DNA from: an uncultured Clostridia bacterium
GTDB lineage: Bacteria; Bacillota; Clostridia; Christensenellales; Borkfalkiaceae
Length of the DNA: 41,810 nt
Assembly (NCBI GenBank): GCA_947631325.1
Contig: CANRKX010000011.1
Coordinates: 1-41,810, forward strand
Reading direction: 5' to 3'
In this document: piece after piece, positions 17,004 through 32,932 of the stretch
Layout: each line of letters begins with the position of its first letter
How positions within the stretch are numbered: position 1 is the first letter of the stretch
Notes under the pieces: model-generated
What the model was told of the DNA's origin: nothing
Database searches by the model: none
The model's input: only the letters and a program-made list of their open reading frames with translations
Program-made: the position numbers and the translations under genes

Positions 17004-18059
17004 TCACGTGTGGGTAGGAGACAAATAGACAGATTTATCGGTGGATTTTCTGAAAATCATATAAGTGCCTATGGTTATGGTGCGCGAGGGGATATCGGGA
17101 TTTTCAATCCTGTGGACGAGGGTGCGCAGAGCCTCCCTTCCCAAAAACTCCTTATCGACTGAGAAGGTGGTCAGCTCGGGTTGGATAGCCGTTGCGTCCG
17201 AAACGTTGTCGAAGCCGACGACGATGGCGTCTTTAGGGACGTTTATATTTAGACTTTTGAGGGCGTTGCAGACGTTGCGGGCGACGAAGTCGTTGCAGCA
17301 GATAAAGCAGTCGGGCTTATATTTTAGCTTCAATATTTCCGATTTTATAGCGTCTGCGTTGCCATAGTCAAAGCTCTCGTCATTGCAGAGAATGTCGTCT
17401 TTACGCGAGTGCTCGGTCTTGGAATTGACAAGCCCTTTCAGCATGCCCATATAGCGTTCCTGAAAGCTCAAACAGTGTCTGCGGTCGCCGACGAAAGTGA
17501 AATTGCCGAGCTTATATTTTGCGTTCAATATCTTGACGATATCGCACACCGATTTCTCGTCGTCGGTGCTAATTATGTCGTAATTTTTATCTGATTATAA
17601 GTCCTGCGCGGTGAAATCGACGAAGCAGAGGGGTTTGTCGAGATTCAATAGTTTTTCGATAAGCTGTTTGTCGAAACACTCTATGGCGCATATCCCGTCG
17701 GGGCGCAGTTCTTTTACATACTCCGTAAACGCCGAGAAGGGGGTCTTGTTTACGTTGTAGGTATGGTGAAAGAATTCGTGACCGTTCTCATAGCAGAAAT
17801 TTTCTATACCGCGCACTATGGGCACGAAGTAGTTAATGCTGTTTAAGGGCTTGCCCGAGACGAGGAGTATTCTGCGCTTTTTTATTTCGCCTTCCGATTT
17901 GCCTACGTTCAGGGATTTATAGTTCATTTCCCTCGCCGTTTTCAGAACGCGCTCTCTCGTCTCCTCGGGCACATACTGACCGTTCAGCGCCTTTGCGACA
18001 GTGTTTCGCGACAGGTTAAGCCGTTCGGCAATGTCCTTTATCGTCACCGCTCTCTTCAT
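17004..18059 (-). pseudogene. LacI-family transcription regulator interrupted by an in-frame TAA
   Basis: Reading from the ATG at 18059 (AAGGGGG ribosome site), the frame encodes a LacI-type DNA-binding domain (VTIKDIAERLNLSRNTVAKALNG, about 5-27). The first half of the sugar-binding domain follows, up to a TAA at 17595-17597 after DFTAQDL. The same frame continues without shift to 17004 and supplies the second half, including ICCNDFVARNV and the VVGFDN...TTFS region typical of LacI proteins. The intact gene would be 351 residues, a normal length. A single-base change (for example TAT or TAC to TAA) explains the break. A GTG at 17547-17549 could restart the C-terminal fragment, but no ribosome site is evident. 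It is divergent from the fructoside-uptake genes it presumably regulated. Alternatives are a sequencing error or a polymorphism. Confidence 0.85.
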
Positions 18060-18082: not shown

Positions 18083-18111
18083 ATTATAAACTATATTGAA
18101 AGATAAATCAA
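18083..18111 (-). promoter_or_regulatory. Sigma-A promoter of the lacI-like gene
   Basis: Minus-strand TTGATT (18106-18111) and TATAAT (18083-18088) with a 17-bp spacer. The first operator-like motif (18113-18130) abuts the -35 box, so autoregulation is plausible. Confidence 0.7.
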
Positions 18112-18112
18112 G

Positions 18113-18130
18113 TTTTTCATATGCACAAAT
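18113..18130 (+). promoter_or_regulatory. Operator-like motif, copy 1
   Basis: TTTTTCATATGCACAAAT fits the 18-bp consensus TTTTNCATATGCACAAAN shared by four sites in this locus. Copy 2 lies exactly 33 bp downstream in the same orientation. The motif is only weakly palindromic, so LacI binding is inferred from position. Confidence 0.55.
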
Positions 18131-18145
18131 TATCGGCCCCGTCTT

Positions 18146-18163
18146 TTTTACAAATGCACAAAC
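18146..18163 (+). promoter_or_regulatory. Operator-like motif, copy 2
   Basis: TTTTACAAATGCACAAAC. Its TGCACAAA starts 22 bp upstream of the TTGACT -35 box at 18177, the same distance as copy 4 from its promoter. Confidence 0.55.
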
Positions 18164-18176
18164 TTTTTTGCGGATA

Positions 18177-18205
18177 TTGACTTGACACATTAAACAAAAT
18201 ATTAT
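18177..18205 (+). promoter_or_regulatory. Promoter of the 18281 lipoprotein gene
   Basis: TTGACT (18177-18182) and TATTAT (18200-18205), 17-bp spacer. An overlapping TTGACA at 18182 has no matching -10 box. The leader is about 70 nt and ends in a GAGGGGG ribosome site. Confidence 0.65.
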
Positions 18206-18280
18206 TACGGAAAAGGCGGAGCCTGCCAAAAGGCGGCGAGGGCTCAACGCTATACAAAAAAATAACCGAGGGGGCTTACA

Positions 18281-20473
18281 ATGAAGAAGAGAGCAAGACT
18301 TTTGAGCATACTGTCTGCGGCTGTGATAGGCGCGACAATGTGCTTCACCGCATGCGGGGAGAAGGAGGTTTCCGAACACGACCATATCTGGAACGACGGC
18401 GAAGTTACAACCCAGCCCACATGTCATACCGAGGGAATAAAGACTTTCACCTGTACCGTCGAGGGCTGCGGCAGGACAAAGACGATGCCCGTTGCGATGA
18501 CCGAACACAGTTGGAACGAGGGCGAAGTGACAAAGGAGCCCAAGTGCAACGAAAAGGGCGAAAAGACTTTCAAGTGTACCAACGTGGGCTGCACGGCGAC
18601 AAGGGTGGACGACGTTGAAAAGACCGCCCATCATTGGGACGGCGGCGTTGTTACTACCGTGCCCGACTTCTACAACAAGGGTGTTTTGACCAAGAACTGT
18701 GCCGATTGCGGCTCAAAGGATACTCAGTCAATAGCGGCTTGCGCAGACTTCGAAAATCAATATTATGGCGAAGCGACGGCGGCAAACGATTGGAAATACG
18801 GCTCTGCCGCGTTCGACGAGTCGGCGGGCACGGTTGACTTCACCGCGGCGACCCTCTCCGAAGGCAAGTGGACGGCTGAGGGAATTGAAATAGCCAAGGG
18901 CACGGTCTCAATCGAAAACGGAAAGACCGCGGCTATCGGCTATCAATTTGTCGCCCCCCGCGAAGAGGTGCAGACCGACGTAAATATTTCTTTCGTAAAT
19001 GACGGGGAGAACGCAGTCAAGGCGTATCTCGTCTATCCCGAGTCGGGCGCGCAGACGGCAAATCTTAACCCCGACGGCGAAAAGGACTTCAAATATGAGT
19101 CCGAAGAGCCCATAGACCTCGAAGAGGGAACCTATTATATAATATTGGTCAACGACAGCGGCGCAAAGGCGAGCGGCAAGCTCACATTCACCCTGACCCC
19201 GCCCTGCGTACACGTTTGGGACGACGGCGAAGTGACAGCCGAGCCCACATGTCACTCAGTCGGAGTAAAGACATATCATTGTATAAATGCAGATTGCGAA
19301 GTTACTCGCACTGAAACATTGCCGCAGAATAACAACCATAATTGGGGTGACGGCGAAGTACAAACGCCTGCAACCAAGTTGTTGCCGGGCGTAATGAAAT
19401 ATGAATGTCAAAATGAGGGCTGTAGCGAGATAAAGACAGAAGCAATACCCAAATTGGGTAGTATTGTATTTGGTAAAGATTTCGAAATTAACGAGACGGG
19501 CGAGTTCAGCAATTGGAGCGTGGGTGTAGTTAATTATACTTACGAGGAAGAGACGTTTACATTTGAAAAGATAACGGCGAAGAACGACGCAGACGACGCG
19601 TATAAAGTTGATTCGAACGGCATTAAGGAAGTAAAGGGCGATTGGATGTCTGTCAACGGCATGATGGGCTTTGCCTATAAGTTTGTTGCGGCGGGCGATT
19701 ACTTCGTTGATTTTCATTTGCAAGCCTTCAAAGACGACAAACTTGAAACCGAGAACGGTGACTTCTCGTTGAGGTGGGCTGTCAAGAACAGCACTGGCGA
19801 AATCAAAAACGCCAATGGAAAGGCGGAATGGGGCGGCAGTGCAAACACGCTCGACTTCTTGAAGAGTATCTCCGTCGATGTTGACGATACGCTCTATTTG
19901 CTTGTGAATAAAGAAGAGGGTGGGAATACCGACCAATGCAAATTCGATATAGCTATCTGTCCCGAATTAGCGGATTTCGGCAAGGACTTCGCTAAAACGC
20001 TTGCGGGCGAAGATACGGGCTGGGGCGTAAACAATATAGACTTTAAATGGGAAGAAGGTCCCGATAAGGATACGTTTACCGCCACTCGGGTAACGAACAA
20101 GAATGGAGCACAAGACGGCTTTATGGGCGATCCTTTCGCCGAAGTCAAGGGTGGTTGGATGGCGTCGGAAGCCATGGTAGGACTGTCTTACACTTCCGTC
20201 GAAGCAATGCAGGTTAAATTCAATGTTACTGTGAACTGCTTAGGCGATGATGGCAAGTGCTCGATAAGATGGGCGATAATAGACAGCAACAACACCATTA
20301 AGACCAACGACGGCAAAATAGATTGGGGCGGCGACGGTAAAGACGTAACCCTTATTCGCGACATTACGCTTGAAGAGGGAGACACACTGTATATTCTCGT
20401 CAACTATGAGGATACCATAGAAGGCGACGACAAGAGCAACGATCAGAAAGATTTCAAATTCACAATATTCTAA
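18281..20473 (+). CDS. Large lipoprotein with Cys/His repeats and two tandem binding-type modules
   Basis: A 730-residue surface lipoprotein; the signal peptide ends CFTAC (Cys25 the likely lipid site). Residues ~33-150 hold three 'HxWxxGEVTxxPxCxxxGxKTFxCxxxGC' repeats related to those in the 3129 product, with two more near 310-395. A beta-rich domain lies between (~155-305). The last ~330 residues are two diverged copies of one module: each starts with FGKDF, contains a GDWM/GGWM motif, an LRWA/IRWA strand and NGKxxWGG, and ends with DTLYxLVN. This suggests duplicated carbohydrate-binding-type beta-sandwich domains (inference). It sits directly after the lacI-like gene with its own operator pair and terminator, so a surface capture role in fructoside use is plausible but unproven. 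Confidence 0.75.
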   Translation: MKKRARLLSILSAAVIGATMCFTACGEKEVSEHDHIWNDGEVTTQPTCHTEGIKTFTCTVEGCGRTKTMPVAMTEHSWNEGEVTKEPKCNEKGEKTFKCTNVGCTATRVDDVEKTAHHWDGGVVTTVPDFYNKGVLTKNCADCGSKDTQSIAACADFENQYYGEATAANDWKYGSAAFDESAGTVDFTAATLSEGKWTAEGIEIAKGTVSIENGKTAAIGYQFVAPREEVQTDVNISFVNDGENAVKAYLVYPESGAQTANLNPDGEKDFKYESEEPIDLEEGTYYIILVNDSGAKASGKLTFTLTPPCVHVWDDGEVTAEPTCHSVGVKTYHCINADCEVTRTETLPQNNNHNWGDGEVQTPATKLLPGVMKYECQNEGCSEIKTEAIPKLGSIVFGKDFEINETGEFSNWSVGVVNYTYEEETFTFEKITAKNDADDAYKVDSNGIKEVKGDWMSVNGMMGFAYKFVAAGDYFVDFHLQAFKDDKLETENGDFSLRWAVKNSTGEIKNANGKAEWGGSANTLDFLKSISVDVDDTLYLLVNKEEGGNTDQCKFDIAICPELADFGKDFAKTLAGEDTGWGVNNIDFKWEEGPDKDTFTATRVTNKNGAQDGFMGDPFAEVKGGWMASEAMVGLSYTSVEAMQVKFNVTVNCLGDDGKCSIRWAIIDSNNTIKTNDGKIDWGGDGKDVTLIRDITLEEGDTLYILVNYEDTIEGDDKSNDQKDFKFTIF

Positions 20474-20513
20474 AACTAAAATATAATCTTCTCTCATTTT
20501 CTCCTTTAAAAGG

Positions 20514-20539
20514 GCGGCGGGCAAAACCCGCCGCTTTTT
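20514..20539 (+). terminator. Terminator of the 18281 gene
   Basis: Stem GCGGCGGG (20514-20521), loop CAAAA, stem CCCGCCGC (20527-20534) and then TTTTT: a textbook intrinsic terminator. Its T-run overlaps operator copy 3. Confidence 0.9.
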
Positions 20540-20553
20540 ACATATGCACAATA
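20536..20553 (+). promoter_or_regulatory. Operator-like motif, copy 3
   Basis: TTTTACATATGCACAATA. The TTTT part belongs to the terminator T-run, so only ACATATGCACAA is independent evidence here. Copy 4 begins exactly 33 bp further on. Confidence 0.5.
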
Positions 20554-20568
20554 AACGGCGGCTATAAG

Positions 20569-20586
20569 TTTTGCGTTTGCACAAAA
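20569..20586 (+). promoter_or_regulatory. Operator-like motif, copy 4
   Basis: TTTTGCGTTTGCACAAAA is the most palindromic of the four copies and closest to classical LacI-family operators. TGCACAAA starts 22 bp upstream of the -35 box at 20600. Confidence 0.6.
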
Positions 20587-20599
20587 TTTTATATGACGG

Positions 20600-20628
20600 T
20601 TGACAGTGTAATACAATAACTATAAAAT
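20600..20628 (+). promoter_or_regulatory. Promoter of the fructoside uptake/hydrolysis operon
   Basis: TTGACA (20600-20605) and TAAAAT (20623-20628), 17-bp spacer, about 60 bp upstream of the first ATG at 20688. No further strong promoter or terminator was seen before 32961, so it may drive the whole run to 32932. Confidence 0.75.
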
Positions 20629-20687
20629 GACTTTAGCTTAAATATTCTGTGAAAATATCACATTGCTTTTCGGCTCGGGGGTACATT

Positions 20688-21764
20688 ATGAAGTCGGTCA
20701 AAATAAAAGAGCTAATCCTTATAGTCGCTGCCGCCATGATTATTGCGTCGGTCGCCCTTCCGTTGGTGTTTGCGGGCGGCTTGCGCGCGCGTGCGGCGCA
20801 GTCCGAGGAAGGTATAAACTTCATCTATTCCGCCGAGTTCTCGTCGGGAAGCGGCAAGTGCGGCTTTATATTCGGCGAGACGGACGACAATTATCTGTCG
20901 ATTGCGGTCGATGCCGACAGCGAACAGGTTTCGCTTACCCGCAACGGCGAGACGGACGACCTTTTAAAGGTATGCGACTGCGACCTTTCGGAACAATTCA
21001 AACTCACCCTCGTCGTTAACGAAGGGGTTGCAAAACTCTTTGTGGGCGACTCTAAGATAGCCGCAATCGTCTGCGCGGCGGAGGGCTATGCGGGCGGCGG
21101 CGTCCGTATCGACGGCGGCTCGTATACAGTAGCCAATCCCCTGTTTATCAAAACGGACACTCCCGACGGAGATATCTATGTCGGCGGCTTTGGCAATTAC
21201 GACGGCTTCAAGGTGGTCAACATAACCGACGGCAACAGCCTTTTAAAGGATGGCGAGTATGAGTTGGAGGGCGGAGTTGTCACCATATCAGACGCATATT
21301 TAAGAACTCTCGAAGCCGACGCCGAATACAGGTTCAGGGCTGTCACCTCTTTGACCGATTTGGACTTCTCGGTGACGACGGATTTCACGGCGGTCAACGC
21401 GTCGTCCGCGATATCCAAATACTATAAGGACAACGACGTAACGATAATTCTTAGCAGCACGGCGTCTGTCAAAAAACTGCAAATCGACGGCAAGGATTGC
21501 ACCTTTACGCAGAGCGGCAGCAGGGTGGTCATCACTTCGGAGGAGATAGCGGGGCTTGCGACGGGCAATCACACCGTCAAGCTGTATACCGACAAGGGGC
21601 GCCCCGAAACTTCGATAAACATATCCGAATCGGTTGAGACGTTGACCGAACCCGTCGAAAAGGTGACCCACGTCTTCCTTTGGGTGGATTTGGCGATATT
21701 CGGCGCGGCTATATTGGGATATGCGGCGTTCGCGATAGTAAAGAGGGTAAGGGGCAAAAAGTAA
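20688..21764 (+). CDS. Exported, membrane-anchored protein, first gene of the fructoside operon
   Basis: The ATG at 20688 follows GGGGGT and is preferred to an in-frame ATG at 20649; 358 residues result. An N-terminal signal or anchor helix (~9-30) ends near RARAA. The extracellular part starts with a beta-rich segment (NFIYSAEFSSGSGKCGFIFG ... YLSIAVDADSEQVSLTR ... KLTLVVNEGVAKLFVGDSKI), a pattern typical of LamG/concanavalin-like or CBM66-like sandwich domains (by eye). A Thr/Ser-rich region and an Ig-like segment follow. A C-terminal helix (~328-349) with a basic tail (KRVRGKK) anchors it. It could hold fructoside near the importer; function unproven. Confidence 0.65.
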   Translation: MKSVKIKELILIVAAAMIIASVALPLVFAGGLRARAAQSEEGINFIYSAEFSSGSGKCGFIFGETDDNYLSIAVDADSEQVSLTRNGETDDLLKVCDCDLSEQFKLTLVVNEGVAKLFVGDSKIAAIVCAAEGYAGGGVRIDGGSYTVANPLFIKTDTPDGDIYVGGFGNYDGFKVVNITDGNSLLKDGEYELEGGVVTISDAYLRTLEADAEYRFRAVTSLTDLDFSVTTDFTAVNASSAISKYYKDNDVTIILSSTASVKKLQIDGKDCTFTQSGSRVVITSEEIAGLATGNHTVKLYTDKGRPETSINISESVETLTEPVEKVTHVFLWVDLAIFGAAILGYAAFAIVKRVRGKK

Positions 21765-21825: not shown

Positions 21826-22896
21826 ATGGCAAACGAAGATATTTCCGCGGCATTGTCAGCCGAAGACCAAGATCTTATAGAAAAGGCTTATGAAGCGCTC
21901 GGCGGCTCTGCCGAAGGCGTTGCGCCCTCGGACGTGGACTTCGACATGATTGAAAACGGCGGTCCCGATGCGCCCCAAAAGTCCAAGTGGCAGAGGTGGA
22001 AGGAGAATTTCAAGCGCAGGGGGTGGATACTCGTGTTTATCCTGCCCGCGCTCATCTACGTAATCATCTTCTGCTACGTGCCCATGTACGGCATTTTGGC
22101 GGCATTTCAGGACTATATGCCGGGCGACCCCATAATAGGTAGCGAAACGCAGTGGGTAGGTTGGGATAACTTCAAGACATTCTTCTCAAACCCCAACTTC
22201 CCCAATTACTTCGTCAACACCTTCCTTCTGTGTATTTTGGGATTTATCGTGGGTTTCCCCCTGCCGATAATCGTCGCGCTCCTTTTAAATTCGGTGCGCC
22301 CCAAGAAAGTCAAAAAGGGATTGCAGATTCTCTACTATGCGCCCCACTTCATATCGCTGGTCGTCCTCGTCGGTATGATGAAGTTCATGTTCGGCTCGGA
22401 CGGACTTTTGGATAACCTCAGCAAGAATTTGGGCGGCGGAGGAGTGGATCTCTTCTTAAAAGAGGGAGCGTTCAGACCCCTGTTCATCTTCTCGGGCAAC
22501 TGGCAGGATTTCGGCTGGTCGGCAATTATTTATCTCGCCGCTCTCTCGGGCGTTGACCCCGCCCTGCACGAGGCGGCAAAGGTGGACGGCGCGTCGAGGT
22601 TCAGAAGAATTTTCAGCGTCGATCTGCCTGCAATTCTTCCGACGATAGTTATGCTTATGATACTCTCCGTCGGCAACCTTATGAGCTGCGGCTATGAAAA
22701 AGTTCTGCTTATGCAGACCGACGGCAATATCGAAAAGAGCGAGATATTGTCCACATATGTATACAACTTCGGTCTCATCGGCGGACAGTACGGTTTAGGT
22801 ACGGCGGCAGGTCTCTTCAATTCGGTGATAAACGTTGCTCTGCTCGTCATCGCAAACTTCACTTCGAAGAAACTTTCGGGCAACAGCATGTGGTAA
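21826..22896 (+). CDS. Sugar ABC transporter permease, LplB-type
   Basis: A 356-residue inner-membrane permease with a soluble N-terminal extension (~1-60) and six predicted helices. The coupling (EAA) motif reads EAAKVDGASRFRRIFSVDLPAI near residues 245-267 and is intact. The family (LplB/MsmF, CUT1 branch) pairs with a YtcP-type permease and a large solute-binding protein, exactly the neighbours here. The start has the consensus AAAGGAGG ribosome site. Substrate specificity cannot be read from the permease; the GH32 and fructokinase genes nearby point to fructosides. Confidence 0.95.
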   Translation: MANEDISAALSAEDQDLIEKAYEALGGSAEGVAPSDVDFDMIENGGPDAPQKSKWQRWKENFKRRGWILVFILPALIYVIIFCYVPMYGILAAFQDYMPGDPIIGSETQWVGWDNFKTFFSNPNFPNYFVNTFLLCILGFIVGFPLPIIVALLLNSVRPKKVKKGLQILYYAPHFISLVVLVGMMKFMFGSDGLLDNLSKNLGGGGVDLFLKEGAFRPLFIFSGNWQDFGWSAIIYLAALSGVDPALHEAAKVDGASRFRRIFSVDLPAILPTIVMLMILSVGNLMSCGYEKVLLMQTDGNIEKSEILSTYVYNFGLIGGQYGLGTAAGLFNSVINVALLVIANFTSKKLSGNSMW

Positions 22897-22909
22897 GCGG
22901 GGTAATCAA

Positions 22910-23815
22910 ATGGATGTTCAGGAATTAAAGGCTGCAAAAAAGAAAAATAAGATAAAAGAGAGCAAGACGGACTACGTATATTACGCAATCTGCGGATTCA
23001 TACTCTTCCTCCTTGCGGTAATAGTTATATATCCCCTGTGGTATATAATCATGGCTTCCATATCGGACGCGGATGCGGTAATGACGGGCGAAGTATGGCT
23101 CTATCCCGTAAAGGTCACCTTCTCGGGATATGCCAACCTCTTCAAGCGCGAAGAGGTGTGGAGGGGTTACTTCAACACTCTCGCCTACACGGGGCTGGGC
23201 ACGGTGTTCAACGTCGCCCTTACCATTCCCGCGGGCTGGGCGCTTTCAAGGGATTATCTCCCCTGCAGAAAGCTCATAATGGCGCTTCTGATAATCACAA
23301 TGTTCTTCGGCGGCGGTCTCGTGCCCTATGTCATAGTCTGCCGCGCATTGGGTCTCTATCAGAACCCGCTCATTCTGATAATCGGCGGCGGCGTGAGCGT
23401 CTACAACGTATTCATGTGCAAGTCATTCTTCCAATCCAACGTCCCGCAAGAAGTGCTTGAAGCGGCTGCAATCGACGGCGCGGGCGAGATAAGGACTTTC
23501 TTCGACCTCATTCTCCCCATAGCAAAGTCGATAATCAGCGTCATGGTGCTCTTCTATGCGGTCGGACATTGGAATAACTATATCGACGCATATATATTCA
23601 GTATAGACAAGAATTTCTATCCTCTTCAGACTGTAATAAACGAGCTTTTGTCGGCGACGTCAAGCGGCGAGGGCGAGGTAATAATGGAGCAGATGAGGAT
23701 AGCCACTCAGATAAAGTTCACGTCTATAATCGTAGCCACGGTGCCCATCCTCATTATCTATCCCATGATAGAAAAGCACTTCGGACAGGGCGTTTTGGTC
23801 GGTTCTTTCAAGTAA
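22910..23815 (+). CDS. Sugar ABC transporter permease, YtcP/AraQ-type
   Basis: A 301-residue permease starting at the ATG at 22910, 13 bp after the previous stop (GCGGGG ribosome site); the longer reading from 22835 would overlap the first permease. Six membrane helices and the coupling motif EAAAIDGAGEIRTFFDLILP are present. The C-terminal FGQGVLVGSFK ending is typical of the YtcP group. It forms the transmembrane heterodimer with the 21826 product; the binding protein follows after 15 bp. Confidence 0.95.
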   Translation: MDVQELKAAKKKNKIKESKTDYVYYAICGFILFLLAVIVIYPLWYIIMASISDADAVMTGEVWLYPVKVTFSGYANLFKREEVWRGYFNTLAYTGLGTVFNVALTIPAGWALSRDYLPCRKLIMALLIITMFFGGGLVPYVIVCRALGLYQNPLILIIGGGVSVYNVFMCKSFFQSNVPQEVLEAAAIDGAGEIRTFFDLILPIAKSIISVMVLFYAVGHWNNYIDAYIFSIDKNFYPLQTVINELLSATSSGEGEVIMEQMRIATQIKFTSIIVATVPILIIYPMIEKHFGQGVLVGSFK

Positions 23816-23830
23816 TAAACGGGGGATATT

Positions 23831-25432
23831 ATGAAAAAGGCAATAATCGGAATAACGGCTGCCGTAATATGGCTCGTGTGCGTAATAGCTTTTGCAGTGG
23901 CGTCCGCCGATACAAAGGGCTCGGAGCATCAGTTTACTGTTCTGGCGGTGAAAGAGGACTCGGTGATGAATTACAACACCATGCCCGTCTTTCAGCAACT
24001 CGCCGAGGACACGGGCATAGAGGTGAATTGGACGTACAACACGTCTGCGCAGTACAGCAACAATATCGACCCCGTCGGCACAAAGGGGATAGACGCAATA
24101 TATCATTCGGGCTTTTCCAACCTCAAGCTCTATGACTACGGCAGAAGGGGCAGGATTGTCGCGATAGACCAATATCTCGACAGCATGCCCAACTTCTCAA
24201 AGATATTGAAGGATCGCCCCGACATAAAGCAGGCGCTCATATCCCCCGACGGACACATATATTCTCTCCCGAGAGTGGAGGAGATGGGGCTTAAAAGCTA
24301 TCCCAATATACTCTATCTCAACAAGAAATGGGTGGAGAAATTAATGGATGAAGGCGGTCTGCCCGCATTGACTGAGCCCTTGACCAAGGACGACCTTAAA
24401 GACGGGCTCGTACTGTACAGAAAGGACTTTAAAGCCATTTTGCAGGCGTTTAAAGACAATAGCTATATCGGCGACAGCAACAAAGTGCCCCTTTCGTTTG
24501 TAAACGGCAACTGGCAGGGCAACGTCAGCGACCTCATCGCCTCCTTCGGCGTTCCCGAGAACAGGGACCATAAGACCATAGTTAACGGCAAGGTAGTGTT
24601 CACGATAGAGGACGAAAAGTGGTTCAACGCCGTCAAGGAATTGCAGGATTGGTACAGCCGCGGGCTTATAGGCAGCTCGGCGTTCTCACAGACGGACAAC
24701 GAATTTCTCGCAAGGGGGCAGGACGGAAGATACGGCGCCTTCTATTGGTGGGAAAAGGACACGGTGCTTGCAAAGGACATAAGGGACGACTATATAATCG
24801 TCGAACCCCTCAAGGACGACGACGGCAAGCAATATGTCGGCGTGAGCAACGAACTTGAAATAGAAAAGGGCGAGTGCGTCATACTCGACGCCTGCCAGGA
24901 TAAGAAGGGACTTTTGTCCTACTTCGATAAATTCTTCGAGCCCGAATATTCGGCGCAGCTCAACTACGGTTCGATAAAGTCGGGCGCATTCCTCTCGGGG
25001 AAGGTGAACGGAAAGCTCGTTCCCAACGACGACCACGGCGTACAGAGCGCGGACGACTTCAGAATGAAGAACGCGCCATACGGAGTGGTATATCTCACCG
25101 CAGAGGTGTGGGAGAAGTCGGTCGAAATGGAGTCGCGCGCAAAGTTAAGGCTTGAAAACCTCGAAAATTACGTCAAGCCTTTCACCTTCGAGGGGGCGAC
25201 GCCCATTCCCAACTTAAACTATTCTCAGGAAGATCTGATAACTTTAAATACCTATGAATCCTCGCTTGCCAACAACATAGCGAGCTGGTTCACAAAGGCT
25301 ATAACGGGCGGAGCCGTGCCTTCAGAAGATTCGTGGAAGAGCCTTCTCGACACCAACAGGGCTTCTATTGACGCCGTTTTACAGTTGAATCAGAAGGCAT
25401 ATGACAGTTATGTTGCGGCAATAGCCGACTAA
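23831..25432 (+). CDS. Extracellular solute-binding protein of the sugar ABC transporter (LipO/YtcQ-like)
   Basis: A 533-residue binding protein, the usual large size for LplB/YtcP systems. The N-terminal hydrophobic stretch (~4-26) lacks a proper lipobox (the only Cys is mid-helix), so it is either cleaved after AVASA or stays as a membrane anchor; most relatives are lipoproteins. Typical segments are the MNYNTMPVFQQLAEDTGIEVNW opening and a YLNKKWVEKL hinge region near 160. It captures the sugar outside the cell and delivers it to the two permeases encoded just upstream. The ligand is unknown; a fructoside or fructo-oligosaccharide is inferred from context. Confidence 0.9.
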   Translation: MKKAIIGITAAVIWLVCVIAFAVASADTKGSEHQFTVLAVKEDSVMNYNTMPVFQQLAEDTGIEVNWTYNTSAQYSNNIDPVGTKGIDAIYHSGFSNLKLYDYGRRGRIVAIDQYLDSMPNFSKILKDRPDIKQALISPDGHIYSLPRVEEMGLKSYPNILYLNKKWVEKLMDEGGLPALTEPLTKDDLKDGLVLYRKDFKAILQAFKDNSYIGDSNKVPLSFVNGNWQGNVSDLIASFGVPENRDHKTIVNGKVVFTIEDEKWFNAVKELQDWYSRGLIGSSAFSQTDNEFLARGQDGRYGAFYWWEKDTVLAKDIRDDYIIVEPLKDDDGKQYVGVSNELEIEKGECVILDACQDKKGLLSYFDKFFEPEYSAQLNYGSIKSGAFLSGKVNGKLVPNDDHGVQSADDFRMKNAPYGVVYLTAEVWEKSVEMESRAKLRLENLENYVKPFTFEGATPIPNLNYSQEDLITLNTYESSLANNIASWFTKAITGGAVPSEDSWKSLLDTNRASIDAVLQLNQKAYDSYVAAIAD

Positions 25433-27771: not shown

Positions 27772-29136
27772 ATGACAGACAAAATCAAATCGGCAAATAA
27801 CTATATAGAAAAATCGCGGCAGACGGTCAACAACGAGTACAGGCTGAGATATCACATGATGCCGCCAATCGGTTGGCTCAACGACCCCAACGGATTGATA
27901 CGTTTTAACGGCAAATATCACCTTTACTATCAGTTTAATCCCTATGCAAGCGCACCGGGCAAGATGTGTTGGGGGCACTTCGTCTCAGACGACCTCGTCG
28001 ATTACTTTGACGACGGCGTGGCGTTGAAACCCGACATTGAAGACGCAAGCGCCTATTCGGGCGGCGCGATAGAGTGCGACGGAAGGATAAACGCCTACTA
28101 CACCCTGCACAGGGAATATGAGGACGGCAAGAAGACTGAAGAGGTGTACAGGGCGATATCCTCGGCGGGATACAGCTTCGATCAGGGGATAAAGGTCTTT
28201 GAAAACGCGACTTTGCCCGAAAATCTGAGCCGCACCGACTTCCGCGACCCCTGCCCCGTAAAGATAGGCAACACCTTTTATCTCTTCGTCGGCGGCAAGG
28301 ATAAGGAGCTCGATAAGGGAGTAATCGTCGTTCTCCGCGGCAAACTTACCGACAAATTCGAGTATGCTTTCACCTTGGGACCCTACTTCGAGTTGGGCGA
28401 CATGGGCGAGTGCCCTTCCTATTACAGGATAAACGGCAAGGACGTAATAATAGTTTCGGGCTGCAACGTTCCGACGCGCGGCAACGACTTCAAAAACATA
28501 AATTCCAGCGTATTTATAGTCGGCGACATAGATTTTTCGGCAGGAAAGATGAAGGTTGACTTTATACGCGAGATAGACAAGGGCGACTCCTTTTACGCCC
28601 CTCAGTTCATAAGGGGAGCGGCAAGCCCCATAATGATAGGCTGGCTGGAAATGTGGGAGAAAAAATACCCCACAAGGGAGAAAAATCACGGCTGGGTGGG
28701 CGCGTTCACAATCCCCCGCGAAATCTCAATAAGGGGAGGAGAGGTTTTCCAGACCCCCGTAAAGAGCCTTGAAAACTATCTTTCAGACGTCCCCCAAGGC
28801 GTTGTTCCGAAGTGTGCCGATATAATGCTTAGCTTTTCGGGCGAGGGATATATAAAGATAAAGGGCGGCGACGGCGAAGTGGTTGTCGGCAACGACGGCA
28901 ATATATATCTCGACACCAACCTCACCAATAACATGTTCGGCTGCGTCCGCAGGACGGACGGAAGATATAAAGATTGCACCGTCCGCATACTTCTCGACGT
29001 CTCGGGAATAGAGGTATTTGTGGACGGCGGCAGGGAAGTAATAAGCAGCAGAATTTACATTGACGGCGACTACAGTCTCGAGAGGGGCGGCAACGTCTCT
29101 GAAATCCAAATAAAGGAAATAGGTAAAAGACAATGA
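27772..29136 (+). CDS. Glycoside hydrolase family 32 (beta-fructofuranosidase / sucrose-6-phosphate hydrolase type)
   Basis: A 454-residue cytoplasmic GH32 enzyme (no signal peptide) that releases fructose from sucrose, fructo-oligosaccharides or their phosphates. Catalytic residues are visible: nucleophile D38 in WLNDPNG (35-41), transition-state stabiliser D159 in FRDP and acid/base E213 in GECPS. Further family blocks are YHLYYQFNP (~49-57) and YSGGAIECDG (~95-104). The C-terminal ~110 residues form the usual small beta-sandwich. Non-phosphorylated substrate is more likely than sucrose-6-phosphate because uptake here is by ABC transporter, not PTS (inference). The ATG abuts the previous stop and its own stop overlaps the next start. 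Confidence 0.95.
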   Translation: MTDKIKSANNYIEKSRQTVNNEYRLRYHMMPPIGWLNDPNGLIRFNGKYHLYYQFNPYASAPGKMCWGHFVSDDLVDYFDDGVALKPDIEDASAYSGGAIECDGRINAYYTLHREYEDGKKTEEVYRAISSAGYSFDQGIKVFENATLPENLSRTDFRDPCPVKIGNTFYLFVGGKDKELDKGVIVVLRGKLTDKFEYAFTLGPYFELGDMGECPSYYRINGKDVIIVSGCNVPTRGNDFKNINSSVFIVGDIDFSAGKMKVDFIREIDKGDSFYAPQFIRGAASPIMIGWLEMWEKKYPTREKNHGWVGAFTIPREISIRGGEVFQTPVKSLENYLSDVPQGVVPKCADIMLSFSGEGYIKIKGGDGEVVVGNDGNIYLDTNLTNNMFGCVRRTDGRYKDCTVRILLDVSGIEVFVDGGREVISSRIYIDGDYSLERGGNVSEIQIKEIGKRQ

Positions 29137-30656
29137 AAAAGATATGTGCGATCGTTGCTTTGGCTGCGGCGGTATGTCTGGGCGCGGCGGGCTGTGCAAA
29201 ACCCGCAGATGGGTACAATGCCAACGTGTTTCCCGTCTCCACGTCCGAAGAGGGGTTGGACGTCACCATGGGCGACGTTATGCCTTTCTATGACGACGGC
29301 GTGATGAATATCTATCATCTCCGCAACAGCACGGGCTCCAACAGCCTTTTCTATCACCCCATAGCGCGCATAACCACCACCGATTTTATCCACTACACCG
29401 ACGAGGGTATTGCGATAAATTACGCCGATGAAAGTCAGCCGGGGGCAATCAAATCCACCGACACCGCGCTCGGCACTGGTTCATTTATCAAGGGCGCAGA
29501 CGGCACGTATCACGCCTTCTACACGGGGCACAACGACAAGGCGATAGACGAGGGCTTGCCCCATGTCGAAGTCGTCCGTCACGCCACAAGTTCGGACGGT
29601 CAGAAGACTTGGGTGAAGGACGAGGACTTCAAGCTTTACGGCTATGAAAACGACTTCCGCGACCCCTATGTATATCTTGAAAACAACGTCTACTATATGC
29701 TTATAACTACCCGCGATTCGGGCAAAGCCGTCATAAAGAGATATAAGGCGGACTCCCTCAACGCCACTTCGGACGATTGGAAGTTTGTCGATAATTTCTA
29801 CACGAATACAGACGGCGACTACAACATGGAGTGCCCCTCGTATATTGAGTACAACGGATTCTACTATCTCATGTTCAGCGAGCAGGGCAGCACGAACGAA
29901 AGCAGGGTCACTCATTATCTGTATAAGACTTCGGCAGACGACGCCGAATGGAAAAAATTCGAGCGCGACCACATAGACGCGAGCGGCTTCTATGCGGGCA
30001 GACTTGAAAAGGCGGGCGACAAGCTCTATGCCTTTGCATGGTGCGCGCGGCTTGCGGGCGGCACTTCGGGCGCGTTTGACTGGGGCGGCAACCTCGTCAC
30101 CCACGAAATAAGGCAAAATGCCGAGACGGGCGAGCTGTATGCGGTCATGCCCCAGACCTATAAAGAATGTTTCGTCGGGGAGCAGGAATACAAGCTTGTG
30201 AACGGCGATTTGCTGTCATCCTTCTCGTTCGGCGGAGAAAAGTTCGAGGCGTACGGCGTTCAGAAGCTCTCGAAAAAGGTTACGAGAATGAGCTTTACCA
30301 TCGAGGCGAAGGAGTTGAAGGGCAACTTCGGGCTGTCGTTCGGGCTGGACGGCGACTATGATAAGCGTCTCGGAAGCGCGGTCATGGCGTTCGAACCCGA
30401 AAGCGGCAAGGTGACCTGCTATAATGGCGTATCGAGCATATTGCGTTACGGCGCGCCGCTCGCCACCGTTGATTTCAAGTTCGAACAGGACAAGAGCTAT
30501 GCGGCAGACGTAATTATAGACGGCGAAGTCATATCGCTGTATTTAAACGGTGAAGTCGCGCTTACGGCGAGAATTACCGATATGGAAGAAGCCAACTTTG
30601 CATTCTACTCAAACAAAACCAAGGCGGATATACGGGATATAAAGATTTATGAGTAA
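29133..30656 (+). CDS. Surface GH32-like lipoprotein with divergent nucleophile motif
   Basis: A 507-residue lipoprotein (signal peptide ending GAAGC, Cys21), so it acts outside the membrane. The N-terminal five-bladed-propeller region has FRDP (stabiliser D177) and MECPS (acid/base E233) in the right order and spacing for GH32. The usual WMNDPNG nucleophile block is replaced by GDVMPFYDDG (~47-56, D48 the likely nucleophile). The C-terminal ~170 residues are a beta-sandwich. Together with the cytoplasmic GH32 it gives one enzyme on each side of the membrane. Activity is probable but the divergent block leaves specificity open. It overlaps its neighbours by 4 bp and 8 bp. Confidence 0.88.
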   Translation: MKKICAIVALAAAVCLGAAGCAKPADGYNANVFPVSTSEEGLDVTMGDVMPFYDDGVMNIYHLRNSTGSNSLFYHPIARITTTDFIHYTDEGIAINYADESQPGAIKSTDTALGTGSFIKGADGTYHAFYTGHNDKAIDEGLPHVEVVRHATSSDGQKTWVKDEDFKLYGYENDFRDPYVYLENNVYYMLITTRDSGKAVIKRYKADSLNATSDDWKFVDNFYTNTDGDYNMECPSYIEYNGFYYLMFSEQGSTNESRVTHYLYKTSADDAEWKKFERDHIDASGFYAGRLEKAGDKLYAFAWCARLAGGTSGAFDWGGNLVTHEIRQNAETGELYAVMPQTYKECFVGEQEYKLVNGDLLSSFSFGGEKFEAYGVQKLSKKVTRMSFTIEAKELKGNFGLSFGLDGDYDKRLGSAVMAFEPESGKVTCYNGVSSILRYGAPLATVDFKFEQDKSYAADVIIDGEVISLYLNGEVALTARITDMEEANFAFYSNKTKADIRDIKIYE

Positions 30657-31608
30657 ACTCTATTGTATCGGCGAACTTCTAATCGACTTTCAATCGGTGG
30701 GAACGGGTTTAATAAAGGACACAACGCAGTTCGTCAAAAAGGCGGGCGGCGCCCCCGCAAACGTCTGTGTGCAGGCGGTCAAACTCGGGTGTGAGGCGGC
30801 GTATCTGACAAAAGTCGGCAACGACGGTTTTGGGGATTTCCTCATCGAAACTCTCAAAAAAGAGGGGGTGGACACGGGCTATATCTCCAAGGACAGTGAC
30901 CACGACACCTCGCTTGCCTTTGTAAGTTTCACTGAGGACGGCGAGCGTGAGTTCAGCTTTTTCAGAAAGGCGGCGGCGGATCTGTTCTTCACCACGGGCG
31001 ACTTCAAGGACGTCGAATTCTCCGCAGGCGACGTACTCGAATACGGCAGCGTTGCGTTAAAGACCTTCGTTGCAAGGTCTACGCATAAATATCTCATAGA
31101 CAAGGCGAGGGAAGCGGGCGCACTCATATGTTTCGACCCCAATCTCCGTTTCAATCTATGGGAGGACGCGAAGGAATTGAAAAAGGTCGTCAATGAATTT
31201 GCAGTCTTTGCCGACGTAATAAAGGTCGGGGAAGAGGAGCTCGAATTCATAACGGGGCTTAAAGGCAACGAAGCTGAAAGGGCGATGTTCAAGGGCAACT
31301 TGAAAGTTCTCCTTGTCACCAACGGCGGCAAGGGCGCGCGTTTGATACTTGCGGACGGCAGGCGCGCCGACTGCAGCGGCTATAAGGTCAAGGTCGTTGA
31401 CACGACGGGCGCGGGCGATTCCTTCTTCGGCGCGTTCATAGCCCAACTCATCGAGAGGGGCGCAACGCCCGAAAACTTGTCCGAAGGCAAGCTTGCCTTC
31501 ATGCATATGCTCGATTTCGCCTGCAAGTGCGGCGCATACACCACAATGCACTTCGGCGCGATATCTGCAATGGGAAATAAAGAAAATGTCGATAAGGCGG
31601 TAAAATAA
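30649..31608 (+). CDS. PfkB-family carbohydrate kinase, probable fructokinase
   Basis: A 319-residue cytoplasmic kinase of the PfkB/ribokinase family. The GGAPANVCVQAVKLG substrate block (~33-47) and the DTTGAGDSF anion-hole/catalytic motif (251-259, base D257) are intact. It likely phosphorylates fructose freed by the GH32 enzymes, giving fructose-6-phosphate; relatives in sucrose operons are ScrK-type. Sequence alone does not exclude another hexose or 2-keto sugar. It overlaps the GH32-like gene by 8 bp, and the transporter ATPase begins one base after its stop. Confidence 0.88.
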   Translation: MSKLYCIGELLIDFQSVGTGLIKDTTQFVKKAGGAPANVCVQAVKLGCEAAYLTKVGNDGFGDFLIETLKKEGVDTGYISKDSDHDTSLAFVSFTEDGEREFSFFRKAAADLFFTTGDFKDVEFSAGDVLEYGSVALKTFVARSTHKYLIDKAREAGALICFDPNLRFNLWEDAKELKKVVNEFAVFADVIKVGEEELEFITGLKGNEAERAMFKGNLKVLLVTNGGKGARLILADGRRADCSGYKVKVVDTTGAGDSFFGAFIAQLIERGATPENLSEGKLAFMHMLDFACKCGAYTTMHFGAISAMGNKENVDKAVK

Positions 31609-31609
31609 A

Positions 31610-32932
31610 ATGGCATCTGTTAAGCTTATAAACGTAAACAAAGTATATGACGGCGGCGTTCATGCGGTACACGACTTCTCTATTGATATAAAGGACAGAG
31701 AATTCATCGTTTTCGTCGGACCGTCGGGCTGCGGTAAGTCTACCACTCTCCGCATGATAGCAGGTCTCGAAGAGATATCATATGGCGAGTTCTATATAGA
31801 CGACGTGCTTATGAACAGCGCCGCACCCAAGGACAGGGACATTGCAATGGTATTCCAGAGCTATGCGCTCTACCCGCAGATGACCGTCTATAACAACATG
31901 GCGTACGCTTTAAAACTTCGCAAAGTGCCCAAGGAAGAGATAGACAGGCGCGTCCGCGAAGCCGCGGCAATATTGAAACTTACGCCCTACCTCGACAGAA
32001 AGCCCCGCGCTCTCTCGGGCGGTCAAAGGCAGAGGGTTGCGTTGGGCAGATCGATAGTCCGCCGCCCCAAGGTGTTCCTTATGGACGAGCCGCTCTCCAA
32101 CCTCGACGCAAAGCTTCGCGTGGCGATGAGAAGCGAAATAGTGCGCATACACGAGGAAGTCGGCGCAACCACAATCTACGTCACCCACGACCAGATTGAA
32201 GCAATGACGATGGCGTCGCGCATAGTCGTCATGAAGGACGGCTTTATCCAGCAGATAGGCACGCCCAACGAGGTGTATCAGCACCCCGCAAACCTCTTCG
32301 TCGCGGGATTTATTGGCACACCCGCAATGAATTTCCTTTATGGAAAGCTGGGCGAGGACGTATTTGCTATCAACGGAACAGACCAAAAACTCAAAATGCT
32401 TCCCGATCAGAAGGAGCTTTTGAAAAATTATGTCGGGCACGGCATGGTATACGGCATCCGCCCCGAAAATCTCATCTATGAAAAGGACGAGAGGTTTGAA
32501 AAGTTCAAGGATACGTCGTTTGAAATGGAGGTCGGCATAGTCGAACTTCTCGGCGATATTTTGAACGTACACGGCAAGACGGGCGACGCGGACGTTATAA
32601 TCAAAATGCCCAACAAGTACTCCGTGAAAGAGGGCGACGTGATAAGAGTGGCGGTGGAGCACGGCTATGAGCGTTTCTTCAACGAGACCACGACAAAGGC
32701 AATTACCCCCGATTATTGCGAGTATGAAGAGATTGTCGTCACCAAGTCGCTCGACGAGGACAACGTTACGATAATCGAACAGAAGAAAGGCAGCTTGTTC
32801 TCCAAGGCGTTCGGCGCGATAAAGGGCAAACTGAAGGGCAAAAAACAGCAGCCCGCAGAAGATTCCGACAAGCAACCCGCAGAAGAATCCTCGGAAGAGC
32901 CCTCCCCCAAGCAAGAAGCCGAGAAAATGTAG
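31610..32932 (+). CDS. MsmK/UgpC-type sugar ABC transporter ATPase with extra C-terminal tail
   Basis: A 440-residue ATPase that would power the permease pair. Walker A GPSGCGKST (37-45), signature LSGGQ (135-139) and Walker B VFLMDE (155-160) are intact; residues ~240-365 form the regulatory OB-fold domain of the CUT1 family. Relatives are about 370 residues; here ~60 more follow, first hydrophobic/basic (SLFSKAFGAIKGKLKGKK) then Glu/Pro/Ser-rich, apparently disordered. The gene ends the fructoside operon, followed by a hairpin at 32961. Many clostridial LplB systems lack their own ATPase and share an MsmK; this one may also serve other importers. Confidence 0.93.
   Translation: MASVKLINVNKVYDGGVHAVHDFSIDIKDREFIVFVGPSGCGKSTTLRMIAGLEEISYGEFYIDDVLMNSAAPKDRDIAMVFQSYALYPQMTVYNNMAYALKLRKVPKEEIDRRVREAAAILKLTPYLDRKPRALSGGQRQRVALGRSIVRRPKVFLMDEPLSNLDAKLRVAMRSEIVRIHEEVGATTIYVTHDQIEAMTMASRIVVMKDGFIQQIGTPNEVYQHPANLFVAGFIGTPAMNFLYGKLGEDVFAINGTDQKLKMLPDQKELLKNYVGHGMVYGIRPENLIYEKDERFEKFKDTSFEMEVGIVELLGDILNVHGKTGDADVIIKMPNKYSVKEGDVIRVAVEHGYERFFNETTTKAITPDYCEYEEIVVTKSLDEDNVTIIEQKKGSLFSKAFGAIKGKLKGKKQQPAEDSDKQPAEESSEEPSPKQEAEKM

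Follow-up and report, generated by a model that had tools for sequence, protein, structure and literature searches.

The operator of a classical LacI repressor overlaps its promoter, from the -35 box to about +20. We noted a different placement in the draft genome of an uncultured Clostridia bacterium, where two promoters of a beta-fructan locus are each preceded by a pair of LacI-type sites and both conserved blocks are upstream of the -35 box. The window analyzed here is one whole contig of that genome (CANRKX010000011.1, 41,810 nucleotides), and the locus, which lies at about 17 to 33 kb, has genes for an ATP-binding cassette (ABC) importer, two GH32 enzymes and a PfkB kinase, with a gene for a LacI-family regulator (lacI) divergent from the first promoter. 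We give a probability of roughly 65% to the reading in which dimers of this local regulator occupy both sites and activate transcription from about -58 and -91. Within that reading, binding by the adjacent LacI protein is well supported by conservation of the sequences, and activation is the most likely mode of action given the position of the sites and the precedents for it.

Tandem LacI-family sites near 32 bp apart and activation by LacI-family proteins from upstream of the -35 box have both been published already. CcpA at Bacillus ackA, pta and ilvB is likewise a LacI-family protein of Firmicutes with its site upstream of the -35 box, by 14 bp (PMC6882875, PMC3463425); the site at this distance is an activating one (PMC6882875), and cre sites upstream of the -35 box generally accompany activation (PMC3463425). 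CcpA is global, HPr-Ser-P-dependent and mostly repressing, however, whereas the regulator described here is local, with two sites at a rigid 33 bp and an A/T centre. GalR, which binds OE of the E. coli gal operon, is likewise a LacI-family dimer, at -60.5 and in contact with polymerase (PMC4693257), but the second gal operator is 113 bp away inside the gene, while here the second operator is 33 bp further upstream. Among the LacI-family site pairs collected by Ravcheev et al. 2014, distances peak at 13, 22 and 32 bp, with the pairs at 22 and 32 bp read as cooperative dimers, and 1173 of 1303 regulators have a central CG (PMC4052901), in contrast to the A/T centre found here; a constant distance to the -35 box does not come up there in the sections consulted. 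The AraQ and MalR1 proteins of Bifidobacterium have LacI-type sites 15-16 or 33-35 bp upstream of the -35 box at genes thought to be activated (PMC6882875); those sites are CG-centred, are at variable distances and serve central metabolism, unlike the fixed, A/T-centred fructan sites in this study. We found no description of this regulator or its regulon among open-licence PMC papers and, as far as that literature could show, the regulator, its A/T-centred operator and the fixed placement relative to the -35 box across families are new.

Scanning the window with TTTTNCATATGCACAAA gave four matches, all on the forward strand, at 18113 (0 mismatches), 18146 (1), 20536 (1) and 20569 (2). An earlier sequence-only reading of this stretch had fitted four sites to one motif, and all four do match it, although only one of the four is an exact copy. 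The upstream and promoter-proximal sites of promoter 1 are TTTTTCATATGCACAAA (18113..18129) and TTTTACAAATGCACAAA (18146..18162), and those of promoter 2 are TTTTACATATGCACAAT (20536..20552) and TTTTGCGTTTGCACAAA (20569..20585). Within them TGCACAAA (or TGCACAAT) starts at 18122 and 18155 and at 20545 and 20578, giving 33 bp in both pairs, and the -35 boxes, TTGACT starting at 18177 and TTGACA starting at 20600, are each 22 bp past the second site. A 17-bp spacer follows in both cases, and then TATTAT at promoter 1 (18177..18205, forward strand, with a geometry shared with relatives) or TAAAAT at promoter 2 (20600..20628, forward strand). These are the same positions, distances and common orientation that the sequence-only reading had reported. 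If transcription is taken to start 7 nt past the -10 box, our own arithmetic puts the dyad axes at about -58.5 and -91.5, slightly off the proposed centres of -57 and -90.

At promoter 1 a second box, TTGACA, overlaps 5 bp downstream of TTGACT. We took TTGACT as the -35 box because the overlapping TTGACA would leave a 12-bp spacer to TATTAT; the scan with free spacing described below picks TTGACA and not TTGACT. The upstream site of promoter 1 abuts the -35 box of the divergent lacI promoter (TTGATT, 17-bp spacer, TATAAT; 18083..18111, reverse strand). Between the two transcription units there is an intrinsic terminator on the forward strand (20509..20539), whose T run enters the upstream site of promoter 2, as had been proposed for the TTTT of this copy. 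Folding of the surrounding stretch gives -22.4 kcal/mol (z -5.0), and the terminator is missing from a consensus terminator scan. Given a strong terminator after the first unit, promoter 2 opens a unit of its own.

With only two pairs in the window, one could attribute the arrangement to chance or to duplicated DNA, but conservation refutes this and we give it practically no weight. Dinucleotide-shuffled windows have an expectation of 0.03 sites, and four sites were reached in 0/100 shuffles. The geometry recurs at 33 promoters, and the spacers are unrelated: likeness between promoters 1 and 2 is 0.34 within a genome and 0.32 between genomes (7 genomes), a background level of identity that rules out recent duplication of one promoter. 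In its own genome (1.46 Mb in 78 contigs), a 33-bp TGCACAAA pair with at most one mismatch is found at these two places only, and when up to three mismatches are allowed the pair pattern is at background (11+5, compared to 6+12 for a reversed-pattern control). A motif common throughout the genome had been named beforehand as a sign against promoter linkage; near-perfect pairs are found nowhere else in this genome, and the shuffles and the geometry conserved in relatives bear out the earlier view that the arrangement is promoter-linked and unlikely by chance.

We scanned 22 stretches from 20 relatives of the same genus jointly with the window, demanding exactly 33 bp between the sites and 22 bp to the -35 box. 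Thirty-three promoters have this geometry, spread over 19 of the 20 genus genomes with a close orthologue of lacI; among these genomes, G062 and G087 nearly duplicate each other. In the twentieth, G099, the 33-bp pair is present but is 21 bp from the -35 box, counted by hand, and its stretch (L123) is one of three among the 22 with no match in the strict scan. Of the other two, L049 is a short contig on which GH32 is the only one of the queried genes present, and L053, from genome G018, keeps the permease, binding-protein and GH32 genes and lacks an orthologue of lacI, the best match being 24% identical; G018 has no pair in the 20 kb scanned at L053 and no near-perfect pair genome-wide. Whether relatives that keep the genes also keep the sites was a test set in advance, and those with both the genes and lacI do keep the site pair. 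When no distance was preset, the window and the first nine stretches showed a peak at 33 bp for TGCACAAA pairs on the same strand (at least 7 of 8 letters; n=12, with no other spacing above 1), and peaks at 22 (n=17) and 55 (n=12) for the distance from TGCACAAA to TTGAC.

At the 33 promoters the spacer between the -35 and -10 boxes is 17 bp in 24, 18 in 6 and 16 in 3. Nineteen of them face lacI, and the remaining 14 precede a large GH32 frame (4), a CBM_X2-like gene (4) or the first permease gene (6). When 29 lacI-facing promoters are aligned, both 17-bp blocks and the -35 box are conspicuous and the -10 box less so, A/T-rich DNA lies directly 3' of each block, and there is no third conserved block on the way to the -10 box. 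The -10 box is TATAAT in 0/33 promoters (a further one, L150, has it) compared to 21/35 lacI promoters, for which the scan favours TATAAT; we base no conclusion on this difference.

A contig scan of 40 lacI relatives, 39 of which have upstream DNA, extended this beyond the genus with the spacing left free; the set overlaps the genus set and includes near copies. The best distances between the sites and to the -35 box were 33/22 at 30 loci, 33/21 at 3, 32/22 at 3, 32/23 at 1 and 35/22 at 2, and at the two 35/22 loci a 33/22 reading scores equally by hand count. The pair and the -35 box together matched at least 19 letters at 36/39 loci and in 0/780 single-letter shuffles of the upstream regions; L146, L149 and L151, which fall below 19, have a weaker pair. 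In other families the equivalent pair adjoins lacI genes of 47-58% identity, and the 32-bp pairs all belong to four Erysipelotrichaceae records, where LacI is 47-56% identical to the query.

Taking at least 62% identity over the N-terminal part as the definition of a lacI orthologue in the genus, 20 of 93 genomes qualify. Near-perfect pairs (at most one mismatch) are present in 14 of these 20 and in none of the 73 others (Fisher p 2.6e-12, with species that are not independent), and at 2-3 mismatches the pattern also matches by chance, as judged by a reversed-pattern control in the genus genomes. Across 297 genomes drawn evenly from the order, 13 have a match at 0 or 1 mismatch, and 10 of the 13 have a lacI orthologue, eight at 58-73% identity plus G000 and G028; the search for lacI covered only a minority of the other 284 genomes. 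The sequence-only reading had offered the divergent LacI-type protein as a candidate ligand, and the co-occurrence of sites and lacI orthologue at constant geometry now makes it a strong candidate. It is improbable that another transcription factor binds the pairs and lacI is merely a neighbour, as the absence of near-perfect pairs from the 73 genomes, the recurrence of the pair beside lacI genes of 47-58% identity in other families, and an even dyad with outer bases like those of the lac operator all argue for LacI. What another factor would explain is that the sites persist in the window even though its lacI gene is interrupted by a stop codon, and that three of the 13 order genomes with a match (G278, G270, G365) have no close lacI, but the matches in these three are A-rich and do not have a repeated TGCACAAA pair.

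Pooled sites give a 16-bp palindrome near TTGTGCAWWTGCACAA, where the consensus is our reading of the profiles, and its centre is A/T. The outer TTGTG and CACAA of this consensus are those of the E. coli lac operator. For both sites the axis i+j=17 was the best of 12 tried, with 0.61 and 0.68 of letter pairs. Proximal sites have 11-14 of 14 consensus letters (4/33 are perfect) and upstream sites 9-12, so the sites of the window, and upstream sites generally, are only weakly palindromic as had been said, while this holds less for the proximal sites of the relatives. The right half-site, near TGCAMAA, is stable across relatives. In the left half of the upstream site, TTT persists at positions 2-4 but the inner G is present in only 4/32, compared to 30/32 for the proximal site. 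This asymmetry is seen both adjoining lacI and elsewhere, and its occurrence at promoters away from lacI (14 in all, with L118, L119 and L121 counted as lacI-adjacent) rules out the sharing of the lacI promoter as its source. We read the upstream site as a probable weaker distal half-site. The common orientation described earlier is borne out by this conserved asymmetry of the upstream site, but head-to-tail binding need not follow. Each site is a dimer dyad centred on A/T. Site 1 abuts the lacI -35 box in 17/35 loci (a gap of 17 or 18, measured from where the right half begins), which suggests that lacI is likely to regulate itself, whether up or down.

The regulator gene of the window (17004..18059, reverse strand) is split in the assembly by an in-frame TAA at 17595-17597, after which the frame and the similarity resume to the usual end; the orthologue in G064 is frameshifted. 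Two pieces of the window gene match the LacI/GalR family (the N-terminal helix-turn-helix, PF00356, E 2.1e-9; the periplasmic-binding-like effector domain, PF13377, E 4.9e-23), PurR chains are the best solved-structure matches of the regulator alignment, and lacI is the only LacI-family helix-turn-helix gene found by PF00356 in its genome. The helix-turn-helix is nearly invariant in 17 orthologues, and the recognition-helix region SRNTVAKALNG is almost unchanged. A CcpA-type protein is not indicated, with the intact L116 orthologue scoring 46.8 bits against a ccpA model cut-off of 442.35.

In LacI-family proteins the canonical hinge helix is PNxxAxxL with a leucine lever. A motif of this kind is present in 0/17 aligned orthologues, and the PurR hinge aligns to SLNLKRIEVG in the regulator. 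An AlphaFold model built from 17 sequences has a mean pLDDT (predicted local confidence) of 78.8 and falls below 50 at residues 50-57, which is weak evidence on the hinge. The regulator is without the canonical hinge helix. By profile search, the hinge motif is present in 6 of 10 LacI-type paralogues; L105 and the near copies L109 and L110 are without it as far as shown, and the part of L106 shown is too short to judge. We noted by eye that L105, L109 and L110 have TTTCGAAA dyads that directly follow the -10 box of a divergent gene, and this gene seems to encode a 4-alpha-glucanotransferase. A link between the missing hinge helix and the A/T operator centre is weakened by these three, which are hinge-less and have CG-centred dyads.

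In the mechanism we propose, each regulated promoter of the fructan locus would have the neighbouring LacI-family regulator bound to two dyad operators of 16 bp, at about -58.5 and -91.5. The two are three helical turns apart, and the proximal 17-bp site ends 14 nt short of the -35 box. Activation would most likely proceed by contact with RNA polymerase, probably through its alpha C-terminal domains, which would probably sit on the A/T-rich DNA beside each site in a class-I-like tandem arrangement, and the effector would presumably be derived from fructan. A fixed, helix-phased distance upstream of the -35 box, a mark of class-I-type activators, is seen at the 33 promoters, where 22 bp was itself a condition of selection, and under free spacing at the 39 loci, where the distance is 21-23 bp. 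We favour activation because of the CcpA precedent, because no downstream operator was found, and because the paralogues L105, L109 and L110 have their dyads at the usual repressor place. At the 33 promoters, nothing operator-like within 150 bp past the -10 box stands above shuffles (best 7-9 of 14 letters, compared to 6-11 in shuffles). The earlier preference for an activator position over simple blocking is upheld.

We do not retain the looping factor suggested in the sequence-only reading. Two operators per promoter would suit a LacI tetramer that represses by looping the 33 bp or by bridging to a downstream operator, but about three turns is short for a protein-closed loop and far below the 113-bp gal loop, no third site was found from the blocks to 150 bp behind the -10 box, and the literature takes tandem LacI sites spaced 22 and 32 bp apart for cooperative dimers (PMC4052901), so that we consider looping very improbable.

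Contact repression is the most probable of the alternatives, although less likely than activation. Here dimers near -58 and -91 would hold polymerase inactive, as GalR does at gal P1, until a fructan-derived sugar releases them. The LacI proteins of local sugar loci are mostly repressors, and usually inducer-released ones, which favours contact repression and is the first of several points that weigh against activation. The -35 boxes are near consensus (TTGACA in 25/33), which an activated promoter does not need and which again suits contact repression. The lacI gene of the window is itself interrupted, and the distance to the -35 box, at 21 in 3/39 loci and 23 in 1/39, shows a tolerance of one base. 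From -60.5, GalR has opposite effects on two gal promoters, repression of one and activation of the other (PMC4693257), so position alone leaves the sign unsettled. The Bacillus levanase operon is an exception among upstream cre sites, with CcpA repressing it from such a site through its effect on LevR, a further point for contact repression, and pta was lowered in that study (PMC3463425); in Bifidobacterium, an AraQ mutant left genes predicted to be activated unchanged (PMC6882875). Set against contact repression, CcpA, the LacI-family protein of Firmicutes, uses this very 14-bp position to activate, and other LacI-type genes of the genus use the plain repressor position, as seen by eye.

The hinge-less LacI clade may have become a dedicated activator of fructan loci, in which two dimers are required in a rigid array, each 33-bp step provides one operator and one slot for an alpha C-terminal domain, and sugar induces by LacI binding and not by release. 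We hold this extension only tentatively, at somewhat below an even chance. For Clostridia that are known mainly from metagenomes, the system would tie fructan use to a definite operator, regulator and set of targets. The fixed two-site geometry across families also supplies natural test material for the way in which a LacI-family protein can activate, and for the generality of the promoter-contact distance of CcpA.

The first gene behind promoter 1 encodes a lipoprotein-like 730-aa protein (18281..20473, forward strand) with no match in Pfam or NCBIfam, in which we saw by eye repeated HxWxxGxVTxxPTCxxxGxKTFxC-like motifs. The genes that follow promoter 2 are also on the forward strand. The first (20649..21764) encodes a protein that looks membrane-anchored from its sequence and has a CBM_X2 match at the cut-off, followed by two ABC permeases (21826..23815, BPD_transp_1) and a putative solute-binding protein (23831..25432), which is named from its position and a look at its sequence and has no Pfam match. 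Further along are two GH32 enzymes (27772..30656), one with a BT1760-like C-terminal domain that scores barely above the cut-off, and then a PfkB-family kinase, closest to fructokinase, together with a MalK/MsmK-like ATPase (30649..32932). The CBM_X2-like gene is immediately behind promoter 2 in the window and in L047, L116 and L117, and in L045, L046, L048 and L114 a GH32-like gene sits between the two; the GH32-like open frames behind promoter 2 are 1166 (L045), 1153 (L046) and 1006 aa (L048) long. At L149, what follows the tandem pair divergent from lacI is, in place of the lipoprotein gene, a MalK/MsmK-like ATPase with permeases and a binding protein. The Erysipelotrichaceae records L161, L163 and L165 have both the regulator and the lipoprotein, and in L163 and L165 a piece of the first permease is 78-79% identical. 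This is above the identity of the regulator and may point to transfer between classes.

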